Assembly: GCA_947641735.1 (NCBI GenBank)
Contig: CANRQR010000006.1
Coordinates: 1-55,311 of the forward strand
Direction of reading: 5' to 3'
Length of the DNA: 55,311 bases
Source: an uncultured Lactobacillus sp.
Lineage (GTDB): Bacteria > Bacillota > Bacilli > Lactobacillales > Lactobacillaceae
A program made the position numbers and the translations under genes. Every line of letters begins with the position of its first letter. The stretch's first letter is position 1. Shown here piece by piece: positions 4,198 to 48,161 of this stretch. The notes under the pieces were generated by a model. The model searched no databases and had not been told where the DNA came from. It worked only from the letters and a program-made list of their open reading frames with translations.

Positions 4198-4337
4198 TAG
4201 CTTTCCCTACCTAATAAATAATTTTCTCAATTCGATATTATACCTGAATCCTTTCCTTGCTACCGAAAATAAAAAATGAGCATCTCTCTTATATTTCTTT
4301 TGGTTTTGTACTATAATATATAAATTGTAGTAGTGGA

Positions 4338-4388
4338 TTACTTATGATCCATTGCTATTAGCATTAACATCCAACTTTTTATTTTCAT
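4338..4388 (-). CDS. tiny hydrophobic ORF antisense to sRNA copy 1 (16 residues, doubtful)
   Basis: On the minus strand the 61-bp core reads GGAGG, seven bases, then ATG, followed by MKIKSWMLMLIAMDHK and a TAA. The ribosome binding site is excellent and is shared by copy 2, where the same N-terminus opens into 29 residues. A basic start followed by a hydrophobic run is the general layout of type I toxins or small membrane peptides. At 16 residues it may be truncated or not translated. Confidence 0.3.
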   Translation of the reverse strand: MKIKSWMLMLIAMDHK

Positions 4389-4414
4389 TCTTACTCCTCC
4401 AAGTAGATTGAATA
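4354..4414 (+). repeat. 61-bp invariant core, copy 1
   Basis: Identical base for base to 6187-6247 and in the same orientation, 1,833 bp apart, flanking the bacteriocin genes. It starts GCTATTAGCATT and ends AGTAGATTGAATA. Flanking sequence diverges sharply on both sides. Confidence 0.95.
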
Positions 4415-4455
4415 ATAACAAGATCAGCTTAACGCTGATTATCTATCTTTGAAAG

Positions 4456-4487
4456 AACCTATGCACTTCCCAGCATAGGTTTTTTCT
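4456..4487 (+). terminator. terminator of sRNA copy 1
   Basis: AACCTATGC/GCATAGGTT, a 9-bp stem with loop ACTTCCCA, followed by a T run on the plus strand. Confidence 0.8.
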
Positions 4488-4501
4488 TTTGCAATAAAAA
4501 C

Positions 4502-4538
4502 AAAAAAAAGGTTCCTTTCACATTTGGATACCTCTTTT
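4502..4538 (-). terminator. terminator of the bacteriocin operon
   Basis: On the minus strand AAAGAGGT pairs with ACCTTTTTT around an inner TCC/GGA, followed by a long T run, about 15 bases past the last immunity-like gene. Confidence 0.6.
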
Positions 4539-4552
4539 AATTGTCTGTTCAT

Positions 4553-4864
4553 TTATCCCCAATGGATAAAGTCTAATGCATTTTTATCTTGAGTATATCT
4601 AGCATAAACTGAATTTCTTAATTGATTCCAGATCTTGCTTTGAAAATCATTTAACTTAAATTCATTTAATGCCATCGAATTTTCAACTAGACTAACAACA
4701 TTAAATAGTTCGGAAGTCAAAGCAACTGCATGATATTTTCCTGTTTTTAAATTAGTAATTGTTTTGTTTATTTGCTCAATAACTTGAATTTTCTCAGGTG
4801 ACTTATTATCAGCTAAACTTAGTTTAAATGCTTCAAGTAAGCTGATATATTCTTGGATACTCAT
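4553..4864 (-). CDS. bacteriocin immunity-like helical protein
   Basis: 103 residues, no signal peptide, all-helical composition with the layout of the enterocin A immunity family: an N-terminal helix rich in LL, a central LKTGKYHAVAL segment, and a C-terminal LNDFQSKIWNQLRN segment, where family members typically have an LS..Q..IW..L pattern. Proteins of this family sit at the cytoplasmic face and protect against pediocin-like bacteriocins by binding the Man-PTS receptor complex. It lies four bases from the upstream immunity-like gene and is the last gene of the bacteriocin operon. Family assignment rests on pattern and context. Confidence 0.65.
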   Translation of the reverse strand: MSIQEYISLLEAFKLSLADNKSPEKIQVIEQINKTITNLKTGKYHAVALTSELFNVVSLVENSMALNEFKLNDFQSKIWNQLRNSVYARYTQDKNALDFIHWG

Positions 4865-4868
4865 TTAA

Positions 4869-5213
4869 TTACCAAACACCAAATTGATTAATTAATTTAA
4901 ATATTATTTCGTTTTTTTGCAAATTTTTATCCGTTGGATGCAAAAATAAATTCCATGCTTCAGATTGTTTTTTAGAAAAACGCAATCCTCTAAAAGCAAG
5001 AGCATCATTGATATAACTCATCGTTTTTCCGACTCGAATAGATAAAGTTATTCCCTCATACTTTTTATTTTGTAAATCAAATAATGTTTCATCAATGACT
5101 TGATATAGTTCAGTAAAATTAGTGAATGTATTCAAATCACCATATGGTTCATGTTTTAGTTGATATTCTAAGTTTTTAAGTAATACAATTGCTTGTTTAA
5201 CTTCTGATTCCAT
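4869..5213 (-). CDS. bacteriocin immunity-like protein next to the bacteriocin
   Basis: 114 residues from the ATG at 5211-5213, which follows the bacteriocin stop codon by a single base. A longer upstream reading overlaps the bacteriocin and lacks a ribosome site, so I chose this start. It is helical and hydrophilic, with LKNLEYQLKHEP near the N-terminus and RFSKKQSEAWNLFLHP near the C-terminus, echoing the immunity-like proteins at 4553-4864 and 5789-6073. Immediate position after the bacteriocin makes it the most likely cognate immunity protein. Function is inferred from family pattern and placement. Confidence 0.7.
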   Translation of the reverse strand: MESEVKQAIVLLKNLEYQLKHEPYGDLNTFTNFTELYQVIDETLFDLQNKKYEGITLSIRVGKTMSYINDALAFRGLRFSKKQSEAWNLFLHPTDKNLQKNEIIFKLINQFGVW

Positions 5214-5214
5214 A

Positions 5215-5502
5215 CTATCTTGGCCATCCTCTACCACCACTAATAAATCCCGTAGCAACACTATTAGCCATATTATTAATAGTGCTACTTACTACACCGC
5301 CCCAGTTAACTCTACATTTACCATTTTTTAGTGTAGCTGGTCCATACGAGTAGCCCTTTCTGCATTCCACATTAGATCCCCACGGCATAGGATCATACCA
5401 GCCAGGAGTAGCAGCAGAAGCCGTATTACTACTAAAGTATAAGGCAGCTCCTGTCATAACAGGAATAAATGCTGTTGCTAAGAATAATTTACCCTTTTTC
5501 AT
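5215..5502 (-). CDS. Sec-exported pediocin-like (class IIa-like) bacteriocin precursor
   Basis: 95 residues from an ATG preceded by TTGGAGG at eight bases. A Sec signal peptide covers residues 1-30 (MKKGK start, hydrophobic core, NTASA|A cleavage site) rather than a double-glycine leader. The predicted mature peptide is 65 residues. WGSNVEC (41-47) stands where class IIa peptides have YGNGVxC, and CRVNWGG (63-69) matches their CxVNWG element. The two cysteines are separated by 15 residues instead of the usual four, a wide loop like that of acidocin A. The C-terminal ATGFISGGRGW is glycine-rich, as in class IIa tails. No dedicated transporter or processing gene is nearby, which fits Sec export. 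Confidence 0.8.
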   Translation of the reverse strand: MKKGKLFLATAFIPVMTGAALYFSSNTASAATPGWYDPMPWGSNVECRKGYSYGPATLKNGKCRVNWGGVVSSTINNMANSVATGFISGGRGWPR

Positions 5503-5566
5503 GATGTTTACCTCCAAGTTTAGAAAAAAATTTTTATTTTTTTGGAAAGCGCCTTCATCTAATTAA

Positions 5567-5594
5567 ATTTTATCATACCAATTATAAATTTCAA
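5567..5594 (-). promoter_or_regulatory. bacteriocin operon promoter
   Basis: On the minus strand TTGAAA, 16 bases, then TAAAAT, with an extended TGA directly ahead of the -10. It sits about 65 bases upstream of the bacteriocin ATG. Confidence 0.6.
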
Positions 5595-5788
5595 TTATTT
5601 TTCCAAATATATCTTAGTATTCATACAGCTAATGCATAAGAAGTTTACGTGTTAAGATCACATTTTAATGTTAGTGGTATACCAATTTTATATTTTTCAA
5701 AAAAATTGTATAAAGTATGCTTCCATAATACGATTATCTTACAGAAAATCATTTCTAAATTTATCGAAAGATCCAGAAGGTGAAAAAG

Positions 5789-6073
5789 ATGGTTTCTAAA
5801 GATGAAATTATTACAATAATGTCTGAGTTAGTTAACTCACTTAATAATACAAATCCTCATTCAGAATTTACTAACTTCCTTACAGATAGTCTAAACACAA
5901 TTAAATCTAGCAATGGGGTTGCTTTCACAGGTCAACTGCAATATTTTTTTAATCACGCCCCTGTTGTAAAGTTTTCCGATAATATCACATTTACTTCGCA
6001 AGAAGAAAAACTATGGAATAAACTCCTCTCTCTAAACGAGCTAGAAAATAATCTTTGGGGTGCAAGTTTATAA
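5789..6073 (+). CDS. third immunity-like protein, divergent from the bacteriocin
   Basis: 94 residues from the ATG at 5789, which has AGAAGG eight bases ahead; a GTG nine bases earlier overlaps that site and is rejected. The protein is helical, with an N-terminal MSELVNSLNN, a central SSNGVAFTGQLQYFFN and a C-terminal FTSQEEKLWNKLLSL that resembles the SQ..LW..L element of immunity proteins. It is transcribed away from the bacteriocin operon. It may be an orphan immunity gene giving resistance to a competitor's bacteriocin, as is common in lactic acid bacteria. Assignment is by pattern only. Confidence 0.55.
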   Translation: MVSKDEIITIMSELVNSLNNTNPHSEFTNFLTDSLNTIKSSNGVAFTGQLQYFFNHAPVVKFSDNITFTSQEEKLWNKLLSLNELENNLWGASL

Positions 6074-6127
6074 TTCATTTCCAACTTCTTAATCAAATTT
6101 AACTTTTTTAATAAAAAACGTCACAAT

Positions 6128-6156
6128 TTGTTCACATTTTCATTCTAATATATAAA
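6128..6156 (+). promoter_or_regulatory. promoter of sRNA copy 2
   Basis: TTGTTC, 17 bases, TATAAA. The -10 lies 36 bases ahead of the core, the same distance as the equivalent TATAAA in copy 1 (35 bases). Confidence 0.5.
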
Positions 6157-6221
6157 CCATAGCAACGGGGAAGACAAAACCCCATCGCTATTAGCATTAA
6201 CATCCAACTTTTTATTTTCAT
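6132..6221 (-). CDS. tiny hydrophobic ORF antisense to sRNA copy 2 (29 residues, possible small membrane peptide)
   Basis: The same GGAGG-7-ATG start as copy 1 opens a 29-residue frame: MKIKSWMLMLIAMGFCLP, then a polar tail with R, Y and K, ending in TGA. Basic N-terminus, hydrophobic middle and basic tail suit a small membrane peptide. It lies wholly antisense to sRNA copy 2, so it resembles a type I toxin with a cis-encoded antitoxin RNA. No clear minus-strand promoter was found, so this remains a hypothesis. Confidence 0.35.
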   Translation of the reverse strand: MKIKSWMLMLIAMGFCLPRCYGLYIRMKM

Positions 6222-6247
6222 TCTTACTCCTCCAAGTAGATTGAATA
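6187..6247 (+). repeat. 61-bp invariant core, copy 2
   Basis: Identical to 4354-4414, same orientation. Confidence 0.95.
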
Positions 6248-6288
6248 CATTTATCAGTCTTTGACTGATCCTATACTTATATATTTTG

Positions 6289-6320
6289 AAATCCGCGTCT
6301 TTCCCAGCGCGGATTTTTTT
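6289..6320 (+). terminator. terminator of sRNA copy 2
   Basis: AAATCCGCG/CGCGGATTT stem with a pyrimidine-rich loop, followed by a T run. Confidence 0.85.
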
Positions 6321-6399
6321 GTGGGCTTATTTTCGAGACTTTCATATAATGATAATAGAATACAAAGTAATAAATTCAATTAACTTAGGAAGGATTATT

Positions 6400-6894
6400 A
6401 TGTTTTCACCAGTGATTCAGTCTTTGATTGCAGAAAAAGCAGGTTCATTTATTATTCCTGCTTCTAGGATTGCATTTGTGGAAGACGAAAACCCACTCTA
6501 CCATGCTTTTTTAGTTCTTACTAAAATGAAATATTCAAAAATTCCAGTTTTGGATAAAGAGCAAAAAGTAGTTGGCTTAATCAGCTTATCGATGATTACA
6601 GACACGATGCTGACGCCTGATAATATTGTGATTGAACCTCTATCGGACTTAAAAGTTAAAGATGTAATACAGACAAAATTTGAAACAATTAACTTTGCCC
6701 GCACTAATCTTGAGACGCAGCTCCATCTTCTAGTTGATAATCCTTTTATTCCAGTTGTAAATGACAATAATATTTTTCAGGGATTGCTGACTAGGCGAGA
6801 ATGGATTAAGGCCTTTAATTATGTAACTCATTCAATTGAGGAAAAATACAACATTACTAAGAAAACTTTACAGAAAGAAAACCCAATAACTTAA
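6400..6894 (+). CDS. CBS-domain protein, CbpB-type cyclic-di-AMP-binding candidate
   Basis: 164 residues from the ATG with AGGAAGG upstream; an earlier in-frame start at 6286 would run through the sRNA terminator and is rejected. Two CBS repeats are visible: ENPLYHAFLVLTKMKYSKIPVLD with VVGLISL, then INFARTNLETQLHLLVDNPFIPVV with FQGLLTR. Length and the lone CBS pair fit the YkuL/CbpB family, members of which bind c-di-AMP and in Listeria stimulate the alarmone synthase Rel. No enzyme domain is fused. Cytoplasmic. Confidence 0.75.
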   Translation: MFSPVIQSLIAEKAGSFIIPASRIAFVEDENPLYHAFLVLTKMKYSKIPVLDKEQKVVGLISLSMITDTMLTPDNIVIEPLSDLKVKDVIQTKFETINFARTNLETQLHLLVDNPFIPVVNDNNIFQGLLTRREWIKAFNYVTHSIEEKYNITKKTLQKENPIT

Positions 6895-8842: not shown

Positions 8843-8920
8843 TAACTTAATTTGCAACTAACCATATTTTTAGCTAAACTAATTTTTAGTTAAATATTTT
8901 TATTAGTGGTTGGGTTTTAT

Positions 8921-8976
8921 AAAAACTTTCAAGATTTGCTTATTTGGGTCAATAAGTGCTTGAAAGTTTTTTTATT
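8921..8976 (+). terminator. terminator or attenuator ahead of the antiporter gene
   Basis: AAAAACTTTCAAG pairs with CTTGAAAGTTTTT across a 25-base loop that has its own TATT/AATA pairing, followed by T-rich sequence. It ends about 30 bases before the antiporter start, so it could end the ATPase transcript or attenuate the antiporter's. Confidence 0.7.
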
Positions 8977-9007
8977 TTGTCACAAAGTTATAGAAAGCTG
9001 GAAGAAA

Positions 9008-10168
9008 ATGCACTTTTTAGGAGAATTAATTTTAATTCTGCTGGCTACAACGTTATTAGGACAATTATTTTCACGTCTTAATATGCCAGCAGTTATTGGA
9101 CAATTATTATCAGGAATTTTACTCGGACCGGCAATTCTAGGCTGGGTTAAGCCAAATGAAATTGTCTCCCTCTTTTCAGAGTTTGGAGTAATTCTATTAA
9201 TGTTTTTAGCTGGTTTAGAGAGTGATTTAGACTTATTAAAGAAGTATTTTAAATTAAGTTTTACTGTCGCTGGCATCGGGGTTGTTTTACCTGTATTTTT
9301 CACGGGGATAGCCAGTTACTTATTTGGGATGCAGTTCCTCGAAGCACTATTCATCGGAATTGTTTTTGCCGCTACTAGTGTTTCAATTTCCGTTGTAGTT
9401 TTACAAGAAGCTAACCAAATCCATACTCGTGCTGGTACTGCTATCTTAGGAGCAGCAGTTGTTGATGATATCTTAGCAGTTATTGTTTTAAGTTTATTTA
9501 CTACTTTTAGTCATGAAGGTGGAAAAAGTGGTTTAACGAATAACTTTTTCCTCAATTTACTTATTGAAGTAATATACTTTGTTGCCGTTTGGGTTGTCTT
9601 CAAATTCATTGCACCACATTTTATGAAACTAGCTGAAAAAGTGGAAGTCGATTATGCAGTAGTTATAGGCTCCCTAGTTCTAGCCCTCTTAATGGCCTGG
9701 GCAGCAGATTTTGTAGGCTTAAGTGCTGTTGTTGGAGCATTCTTTGGTGGTTTAGCAATTAGACAAACTCCACAATATAAGGAAGTCCAATCTTCTGTTA
9801 GTGCAATTGGTTACTCCATTTTTATCCCTGTTTTCTTTGTAAATATTGGACTATCCATGACATTTGCTAGCTTTATCAAAGATATCTGGTTCATTATTGT
9901 TATGACTATCCTAGCCGTATTATCGAAATTCTGGGCTGGTAAATATTCAAGTGAATTATTTGGTTTTACCAAGAATGAAGGAAATATTGTCGGAGCAGGG
10001 ATGGTATCACGTGGTGAAGTAGCGCTGATTGTAGCACAAATTGGAATTACTCATCACTTATTCCCAGAAGACATTTATTCAAGTTTGATTTTGGTAATTA
10101 TTATTACCACAGTTCTTTCACCATTTATTTTGAACTACTATATTAAGCGTGAAGTAAAGAAGAACTAA
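9008..10168 (+). CDS. cation:proton antiporter, CPA2 (NapA/KefB-like) family
   Basis: 386 residues from the ATG at 9008, preceded by GGAAG. The protein has about 12 hydrophobic segments and the Na_H_exchanger fold hallmarks: GQLLSGILLGPAILGW near the N-terminus, FLAGLESDLDLLKK, and GAAVVDDILAVIVLS, the paired-aspartate site that carries ion and proton. No TrkA-N nucleotide domain follows, which makes it NapA-like (Na+/H+) rather than a full KefB/C. An upstream in-frame extension to 8906 crosses the terminator hairpin and is not credible. Confidence 0.88.
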   Translation: MHFLGELILILLATTLLGQLFSRLNMPAVIGQLLSGILLGPAILGWVKPNEIVSLFSEFGVILLMFLAGLESDLDLLKKYFKLSFTVAGIGVVLPVFFTGIASYLFGMQFLEALFIGIVFAATSVSISVVVLQEANQIHTRAGTAILGAAVVDDILAVIVLSLFTTFSHEGGKSGLTNNFFLNLLIEVIYFVAVWVVFKFIAPHFMKLAEKVEVDYAVVIGSLVLALLMAWAADFVGLSAVVGAFFGGLAIRQTPQYKEVQSSVSAIGYSIFIPVFFVNIGLSMTFASFIKDIWFIIVMTILAVLSKFWAGKYSSELFGFTKNEGNIVGAGMVSRGEVALIVAQIGITHHLFPEDIYSSLILVIIITTVLSPFILNYYIKREVKKN

Positions 10169-48006: not shown

Positions 48007-48073
48007 CCTAGGAAATTCTCTGGCTTATTTGCCTATCTACTGAATTTCTGCTAGAATACTTAACAATCAAGTT

Positions 48074-48138
48074 ATCTATATATCGTCGAAATAAGGTCGA
48101 CAGTATCTACCCTGAGCCATAAATTCAGGACTATAGGT
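48074..48138 (+). promoter_or_regulatory. purine (guanine-type) riboswitch aptamer
   Basis: P1 arms ATCTATA (48074) and TATAGGT (48132-48138); P2 GTCGA/TCGAC with loop AATAAGG; joining strand GTATCTACC; P3 CTGA/TCAG around GCCATAAAT; then GACTAT. All conserved parts of the purine riboswitch are present in order. The specificity base (position 74 of xpt) is C, at 48131, which indicates guanine/hypoxanthine rather than adenine. Confidence 0.9.
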
Positions 48139-48161
48139 ATCAGACGTCATAAATTGCTTTA

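Follow-up and report, generated by a model that had tools for sequence, protein, structure and literature searches.

A pair of candidate regulatory small RNA genes in Lactobacillus with a shared core complementary to translation-initiation regions

The window analysed here, a stretch of 55,311 nucleotides (nt) from an uncultured Lactobacillus sp. (assembly GCA_947641735.1, contig CANRQR010000006.1, positions 1 to 55,311), carries two structured units that share a 61-base core (Table 1). From the conservation, structure, tandem arrangement, terminators, promoter repeat and complementarity observed for these units and their homologues, we consider it probable that both are genes of trans-acting regulatory small RNAs (sRNAs) of ~160 nt, the core of which is antisense to the translation-initiation region of surface-protein messages. 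Transcription of the units, repression, control by a response regulator and RNA decay are steps that we infer. Such RNAs would represent a genus-wide regulator that is covered by no Rfam family at threshold and has surface adhesin-type proteins as a concrete target; with it, lactobacilli of gut and food would possess an sRNA system linked to the envelope, much like LhrC in Listeria.

Both cores lie in the same orientation and their identity spans exactly 61 bases, as reported in a first-pass annotation of this DNA. The copies share the core only, i.e. there is no near-identity over the whole RNA. The second hairpins and the terminators with loops ACTTCCCA and TCTTTCCCAG were likewise seen in predicted folds as described there. 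These loops hold UUCCC and UUUCCC, a C-rich motif that varies across the genus and is not conserved. A 5’ hairpin had also been ascribed to both copies; in the predicted folds it is strong in copy 1 and weaker in copy 2. TATAAA hexamers are indeed present 35 and 36 bases upstream of the cores, but as -10 boxes TATAAT (copy 1) and TAATAT (copy 2) are likelier candidates, and TATAAA consequently falls near the start of the RNA. Within ACUCCUCC of copy 1, the residues CCUCCA are predicted to be unpaired and located in a hairpin loop.

A DNA search using copy 1 as query (E<=0.001) showed 55 of the 61 Lactobacillus genomes, the window’s own among them, to carry the repeat, including each of the 49 genomes with a completeness of at least 90% and a contamination of at most 5%. 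When a copy of a divergent type (type III, see below) was used as query, 56 of the 61 genomes were retrieved at E<=0.05, again with 49/49 of the good ones. Two copies are present in 48 of the 55 genomes, one copy in four, three copies in two and four copies in a single genome, a count in which a small number of second copies were accepted on account of weak matches plus position. Neighbouring copies are mostly separated by 190–270 bp (46 of 55 distances) and nothing is found between such close copies. The other distances range from 404 to 6133 bp in seven genomes of the window’s clade and amount to 20 kb in L. colini (G014) and to 274 bp in one further case. A covariance model applied to the 1.95-Mb genome of a relative, G045, recovered the two copies and, with 34.1 bits, the complement of a single gene start; no further match in this genome scored above 19.7 bits. 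Genus-wide matches together with this clean scan argue that the repeat did not arise by chance.

The 56 distinct copies can be assigned to three types: type I, which is the type of the window; type II, which possesses a longer AU stem around the loop displaying the anti-Shine-Dalgarno (anti-SD) sequence; and type III, which lacks the second hairpin. Across the copies compared, the core hardly varies, in contrast to the hairpins. A 93% identity filter left 48 copies, of which 31 entered alignment A1 and 16 alignment A2, with L015 in neither; for a few copies the ends were placed manually. Among 20 type I copies, compensatory changes were found in 11 of 28 predicted pairs (two in the second hairpin, nine in the terminator), and 16 type III copies yielded compensatory changes in 9 of 28 predicted pairs, three of these in the 5’ hairpin. 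The stability of the 5’ hairpin exceeded that of mononucleotide shuffles in 48/48 copies (z -1.5 to -8.1). A terminator-type hairpin is likewise present in all 48, that of L012_1790 having been identified by eye after the script had chosen a wrong one. The earlier proposal of two paralogous structured RNAs with covarying stems is thus supported and extends beyond the two window copies to the genus; as judged from sequence, the units are a real, genus-wide set of RNA-like genes.

Outside their own loci, the sRNAs have five BLAST matches, one each in G045, G012 and G047 and two in G016. All five are on the opposite strand and cover the Shine-Dalgarno (SD) sequence and the start codon of genes, four of which encode secreted or surface-type proteins and one a membrane transporter (G047). 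A duplex scan was carried out on one complete relative, G045 (1,951,416 bases). The best duplex outside the sRNA loci, with -46.7 kcal/mol, maps to position 452,590 at the start of a surface-protein gene, and the next independent site reached -36.8. When 1882 start regions delineated by a crude gene caller were considered, the second-best value was -33.6. Twelve shuffled queries in which the anti-SD block was kept reached at best -36.2 anywhere in G045, and on the target itself none of 2000 anti-SD-preserving shuffles attained -46.7 (mean -29.9, lowest -46.0). The product of the target gene comprises 1000 residues and carries a SEC10/PgrA domain (TIGR04320, 194.8 bits, cut-off 70) as well as an LPXTG anchor (TIGR01167, 18.0 bits, cut-off 15.9). 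For the orthologue in L. johnsonii (G012) pairing amounts to -50.9, and the two genes in G016 reach -54.9 (weak PgrA match of 37.8 bits, below the cut-off) and -46.9 (SH3 domains, 50.3 bits); values for other target-type genes range from -36.8 to -27.9. Co-folding at full length yielded -36 to -37 in G045, -37 to -38 in G012 and -35 to -44 in G016. The pattern GGAGGA-N0-2-GTAAGAATGA has 61 matches in the 61 genomes, 57 of them within sRNA loci, and the four matches elsewhere all coincide with start codons of secreted or surface-type genes; the backward control gave 0 matches.

Two additional gene starts complementary to the core, those of a small secreted protein (L321 in G033, -37.4) and of an MFS-transporter-like protein (L316 in G048, -33.3), may represent further targets. 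The target-type surface genes at L210–L218 have a common promoter, in which the spacer from TTGAC(A) to the -10 box contains a run of 7–9 G residues (GGGAGGGG in G012), 53–77 bases 5’ of the start codon in the eight cases measured. This G-run could make expression of the target genes phase-variable. Loci L218–L220 carry the common promoter and were left out of the pairing scores; L218 has a gene start, L219 and L220 the promoter only.

Upstream of copy 2, the direct repeat GTCACA-N5-TTCACA overlaps the -35 region, whereas copy 1 of the window’s clade is devoid of it. In the pattern-matched set from named genomes, a relaxed form of the repeat is present at 63 of 67 Lactobacillaceae copies versus 1 of 2143 random windows of the same loci, and the strict form at 52 of the 67 versus none of the 2143. 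Of the four copies missing the relaxed form, two are copy 1 of the window’s clade, and for the other two the upstream sequence available is too short. In G045 the repeat occurs without mismatch at copy 2 only. Sixteen sites in this genome have a -10 box and at most two mismatches; a single one of them is located ahead of a called gene start, and none points to a regulator. The csRNAs of streptococci are driven by CiaR via TTTAAG-N5-TTTAAG (PMC8186281) and resemble copy 2 in having two direct hexamers five bases apart; the box itself differs. Because of this precedent, GTCACA-N5-TTCACA can fairly be read as a response-regulator site. Since the repeat is found at copy 2 and not at copy 1, the two RNAs may respond to different signals in spite of their common core: copy 2 would be under control of a response regulator via the repeat and copy 1 may be governed by another signal.

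In the mechanism that we propose, the 5’ hairpin, the second hairpin and the intrinsic terminator would frame the antisense core. Therein, CUCCUCC would pair with the SD sequence and CAUUC with the start codon, while UUUUU and CAUUAACAUC further upstream would match the initial codons of signal-peptide genes. First contact would probably be made by CCUCCA in its hairpin loop, and the duplex would then extend over 40–50 nt, thereby blocking ribosome binding and opening the message to decay. Messages of SEC10/PgrA-type and SH3-domain surface proteins are the main predicted targets in the window’s clade.

Several observations weigh against this reading. In the window’s own genome (G000), the homologous gene shows moderate pairing only (-31.2; co-folding -23 to -24). 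At E<=1e-20, homologues of the strong target are confined to 5 of 61 genomes, whereas the core is conserved genus-wide; most of the selection that maintains the core must therefore be exerted by other targets. As to the weak matches of a type III sRNA, 20 of 25 were read and 10 of these 20 are near a start codon. The strict promoter repeat is found at no more than 30 of the 56 Lactobacillus copies; those of type III mostly retain the second hexamer alone. Finally, start regions pairing with the core outnumber those of all 12 controls at weak cut-offs only (469 versus 276–436 below -20 and 249 versus 138–237 below -22); at -24 and stronger, the counts are within the control range (e.g. 25 versus 9–28 below -28).

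Some of these observations bear on an alternative, namely that these RNAs are general SD-binding sRNAs that act on many unrelated messages through short pairings, with the long match at the surface-protein gene as a special case. This would account for the excess at weak cut-offs and for the invariance of the core in genomes far outside the range of the long-match target. In addition, the anti-AUG repeats of type III (CATTCATT) could tolerate several SD-to-AUG spacings. However, this excess may only reflect the fact that CAU complements every AUG, and it is absent at the stronger cut-offs. We regard this alternative as fairly unlikely and favour trans-acting sRNAs that are directed at surface-protein messages.

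The first-pass annotation had recognised no named family in the two units. This holds insofar as the window RNAs stay below the gathering score of every Rfam family; relatives of the core, by contrast, display sub-threshold similarity to Ref84, the Enterococcus sRNA 84 (RF02846), and to LhrC of Listeria (RF00616). A comparison of window positions 4200–6400 with Rfam up to E=10 returned weak unrelated models only, neither LhrC nor Ref84 being reported, and the Ref84 model gave no match at ten Lactobacillaceae loci up to E=1. Among the open-access papers listed by literature searches, none was recognised as dealing with these RNAs in lactobacilli. A pattern scan of named genomes yielded 62 stretches, three from other Bacillota and 59 from Lactobacillaceae, including the genera Lactobacillus, Lacticaseibacillus, Lapidilactobacillus and Holzapfeliella. 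The stretches from Paenibacillus, Sporosarcina and Peribacillus are without the promoter repeat and were not counted as members; the one from Sporosarcina is the complement of a lipoprotein-like gene start. Covariance model R1, built from 31 Lactobacillus copies, matched 48 of 201 genomes and 12 of 40 genera of the family, with filters that lose weak matches, and the core pattern searched order-wide was found in 49 of 295 genomes and 11 of 74 genera. A further alignment (A4) combined 10 Lactobacillus copies with 23 of the 26 loci that had passed from 39, one end being set by hand.

In two other families, f9 and f2, the elements follow the same order and a 5’ hairpin is not evident by eye. Genomes of f9 have up to 12 pattern matches at scattered loci, and at loci L351, L352 and L353 of this family tandem arrays of three or four related sRNA copies are seen, 195–213 bp apart. 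One f2 locus scored 40.1 bits with the Ref84 model and 38.9 bits with the LhrC model, both below threshold. Among 198 sampled genomes of the order, RF02846 matched 68, including core loci of f9 and f2 that mostly scored below its cut-off, while RF00616, searched with stricter filters, matched 35; none of these genomes belongs to the window’s family. In the reverse direction, R1 scored 19.5–31.1 bits on seven Ref84 loci and 13.3–26.1 bits on LhrC loci, three of the latter being above the chance ceiling of 19.7 bits in the 1.95 Mb of G045. The 21–42 bits obtained on f9 and f2 loci are partly circular, as the core pattern had picked these loci. From these similarities, kinship of the Lactobacillus sRNAs with Ref84 appears likely and kinship with LhrC possible; the likeness may instead reflect convergence on an anti-SD core.

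LhrC is present in five copies, depends on LisRK and represses the cell-wall adhesin LapB (PMC4132741). Like the window RNAs it occurs in tandem, the LhrC copies being near-identical and about 200 bp apart, and has CU-rich motifs in loops and linker. According to the same paper, LhrC binds the adhesin message near its start and is response-regulator dependent, a close functional parallel that in the case of the window RNAs is a prediction. In contrast, LhrC has a length of 111–114 nt and UCCC motifs, whereas the window core consists of 50 nt that are antisense to an entire initiation region. Ref84 resembles the window RNAs in the order of its elements, i.e. CCAACAACAACCUUUUUAUUUUUCAUUUUACUC, hairpin, ACUCCUUUU linker and terminator, but the Rfam consensus is without a 5’ hairpin and the loop is different. 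A more far-reaching interpretation, which we put forward tentatively and hold at somewhat less than even chances, is that LhrC, Ref84 and the sRNAs described here are one ancient envelope-responsive family of the Lactobacillales. Its core would mirror the whole initiation region including the SD sequence, AUG and Lys-rich first codons, some surface genes of the L. johnsonii group would have drifted or been selected into a near-perfect mirror of 40–50 nt, and the paralogues would differ mainly in the inducing signal. If true, one RNA could silence the class of secreted and surface proteins.

In the window, copy 2 is followed by cbpB and then by a P-type ATPase gene. On the other side of the pair, the opposite-strand genes end in what we take to be DltX and DltA. 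Reading five other loci by eye, cbpB was found to adjoin the sRNAs in four and to be missing in G009. A DltA-like gene is present in three of the five; G056 has another gene at this position and the stretch of G016 is too short to show it. The recurrent neighbourhood of cbpB might indicate that the units are 5’ leaders (attenuators) of cbpB or of the genes between the copies rather than free sRNAs. A match to Leu_leader covers the last hairpins at 6241–6320; it is weak (26.6 bits, threshold 50) and was taken as chance. Copy 1 of the window, however, faces opposite-strand genes, each unit has its own strong terminator, the RNAs of G009 are not followed by cbpB and the matches in f9 are scattered over the genome. 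A leader function is thus considered highly improbable.

The probability is lower still for a type I toxin-antitoxin system, in which the minus strand of the core would provide the ribosome-binding site and the start of a small peptide and the sRNA would act as antitoxin. The minus strand of many copies indeed reads GGAGG, a short spacer and ATG AA. Among the rows listed, however, the frames on this strand vary from 2 to 70 residues and are unconserved, five Lapidilactobacillus copies stop after two codons, conservation ends at the hairpin border rather than at a stop codon, and the minus-strand sequence is explained by complementarity to messages elsewhere. Given the frames in these rows, a toxin peptide was rejected.

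In the window as well as in G045, a bacteriocin-like island resides between the two copies. Its 103-amino acid (aa) and 114-aa open reading frames (ORFs) and the bacteriocin-like peptide have no family match over the cut-off. Elsewhere, G011 has most of the island, G031 one possible immunity gene, G012 truncated pieces and G016 a remnant of 290 bp. In G036, the spacer (L033 2218–7740) presumably contains transposase-like, PTS permease-like and glycosidase-like genes, and the region between the copies looks like a recurrent insertion site. Co-folding with the start of the bacteriocin-like gene yielded -9.7 and -10.6, as compared to means of -7.7 and -9.5 for random starts (n=300, a sample that includes the strong target, which is therefore its minimum), and the core pairs more strongly with 232 of 1882 gene starts than with this one. 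A regulatory or mobile element tied to the island, as suggested in the first-pass annotation because the copies flank it, has the least to commend it among the alternatives, since the close pair is found genus-wide, the spacer content is variable and the island start regions are not predicted targets. Because two copies, mostly 190–270 bp apart, are present throughout the genus and the content between them varies, the pair looks older than the bacteriocin-like cargo, which would be a late arrival. The tempting bacteriocin link is thereby corrected, and the case illustrates that an insertion between tandem sRNA genes can mislead.

Table 1. Positions of the sRNA units and neighbouring features in the window.
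Feature	Coordinates	Strand	Basis or remark
Likely -10 box of copy 1, TATAAT	4312–4317	+	Sequence, upstream comparison; TTCACA repeat not present upstream
sRNA copy 1, start predicted	4327–4486	+	Fold, genus-wide homologues
5’ hairpin of copy 1, 14 pairs	4327–4358	+	Fold; z -6.4 versus shuffles
61-base core of copy 1, complementary to translation-initiation regions	4354–4414	+	
ACUCCUCC of copy 1, SD complement	4393–4400	+	Fold, pairing, invariance
Second hairpin of copy 1	4423–4439	+	Fold, compensatory changes
Intrinsic terminator of copy 1, loop ACTTCCCA	4451–4486	+	Fold
103-aa ORF, perhaps an immunity gene as judged solely from gene order	4553–4864	-	Variable in relatives
114-aa ORF, likewise perhaps an immunity gene, with gene order as sole basis	4869–5213	-	
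Small secreted bacteriocin-like peptide, by appearance	5215–5502	-	Not a predicted target
ORF of variable cargo	5789–6073	+	3’ end seems kept in G016, by eye
GTCACA-N5-TTCACA direct repeat 5’ of copy 2, 11-bp period	6120–6136	+	Shared with further genera, compared with control windows
Likely -10 box of copy 2, TAATAT	6146–6151	+	9 bases 3’ of the repeat
sRNA copy 2, start predicted	6158–6321	+	Fold, homologues
61-base core of copy 2	6187–6247	+	
ACUCCUCC of copy 2, SD complement	6226–6233	+	Fold, pairing
Second hairpin of copy 2	6253–6269	+	Fold, compensatory changes
Intrinsic terminator of copy 2, loop TCTTTCCCAG	6288–6317	+	Fold
cbpB, cyclic-di-AMP-binding CBS protein	6400–6894	+	NF041630, 178.6 bits, cut-off 125

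The only Rfam matches at threshold in the window are a purine and a sodium riboswitch, both located away from the sRNAs. The Na+ riboswitch (RF03071, 53.5 bits, 8908–8957) overlaps the start of a Na+/H+ exchanger ORF (8906–10168), the called start of which is therefore probably too far upstream; the purine riboswitch (RF00167, 63.3 bits) is at 48056–48153. Other exact repeats of at least 30 bases in the window are 45118–45155/47553–47590 and 41352–41381/42021–42050. At L060 (2985–3152), a T-box-like leader was noticed that scores 73.9 bits, below the threshold of 93.

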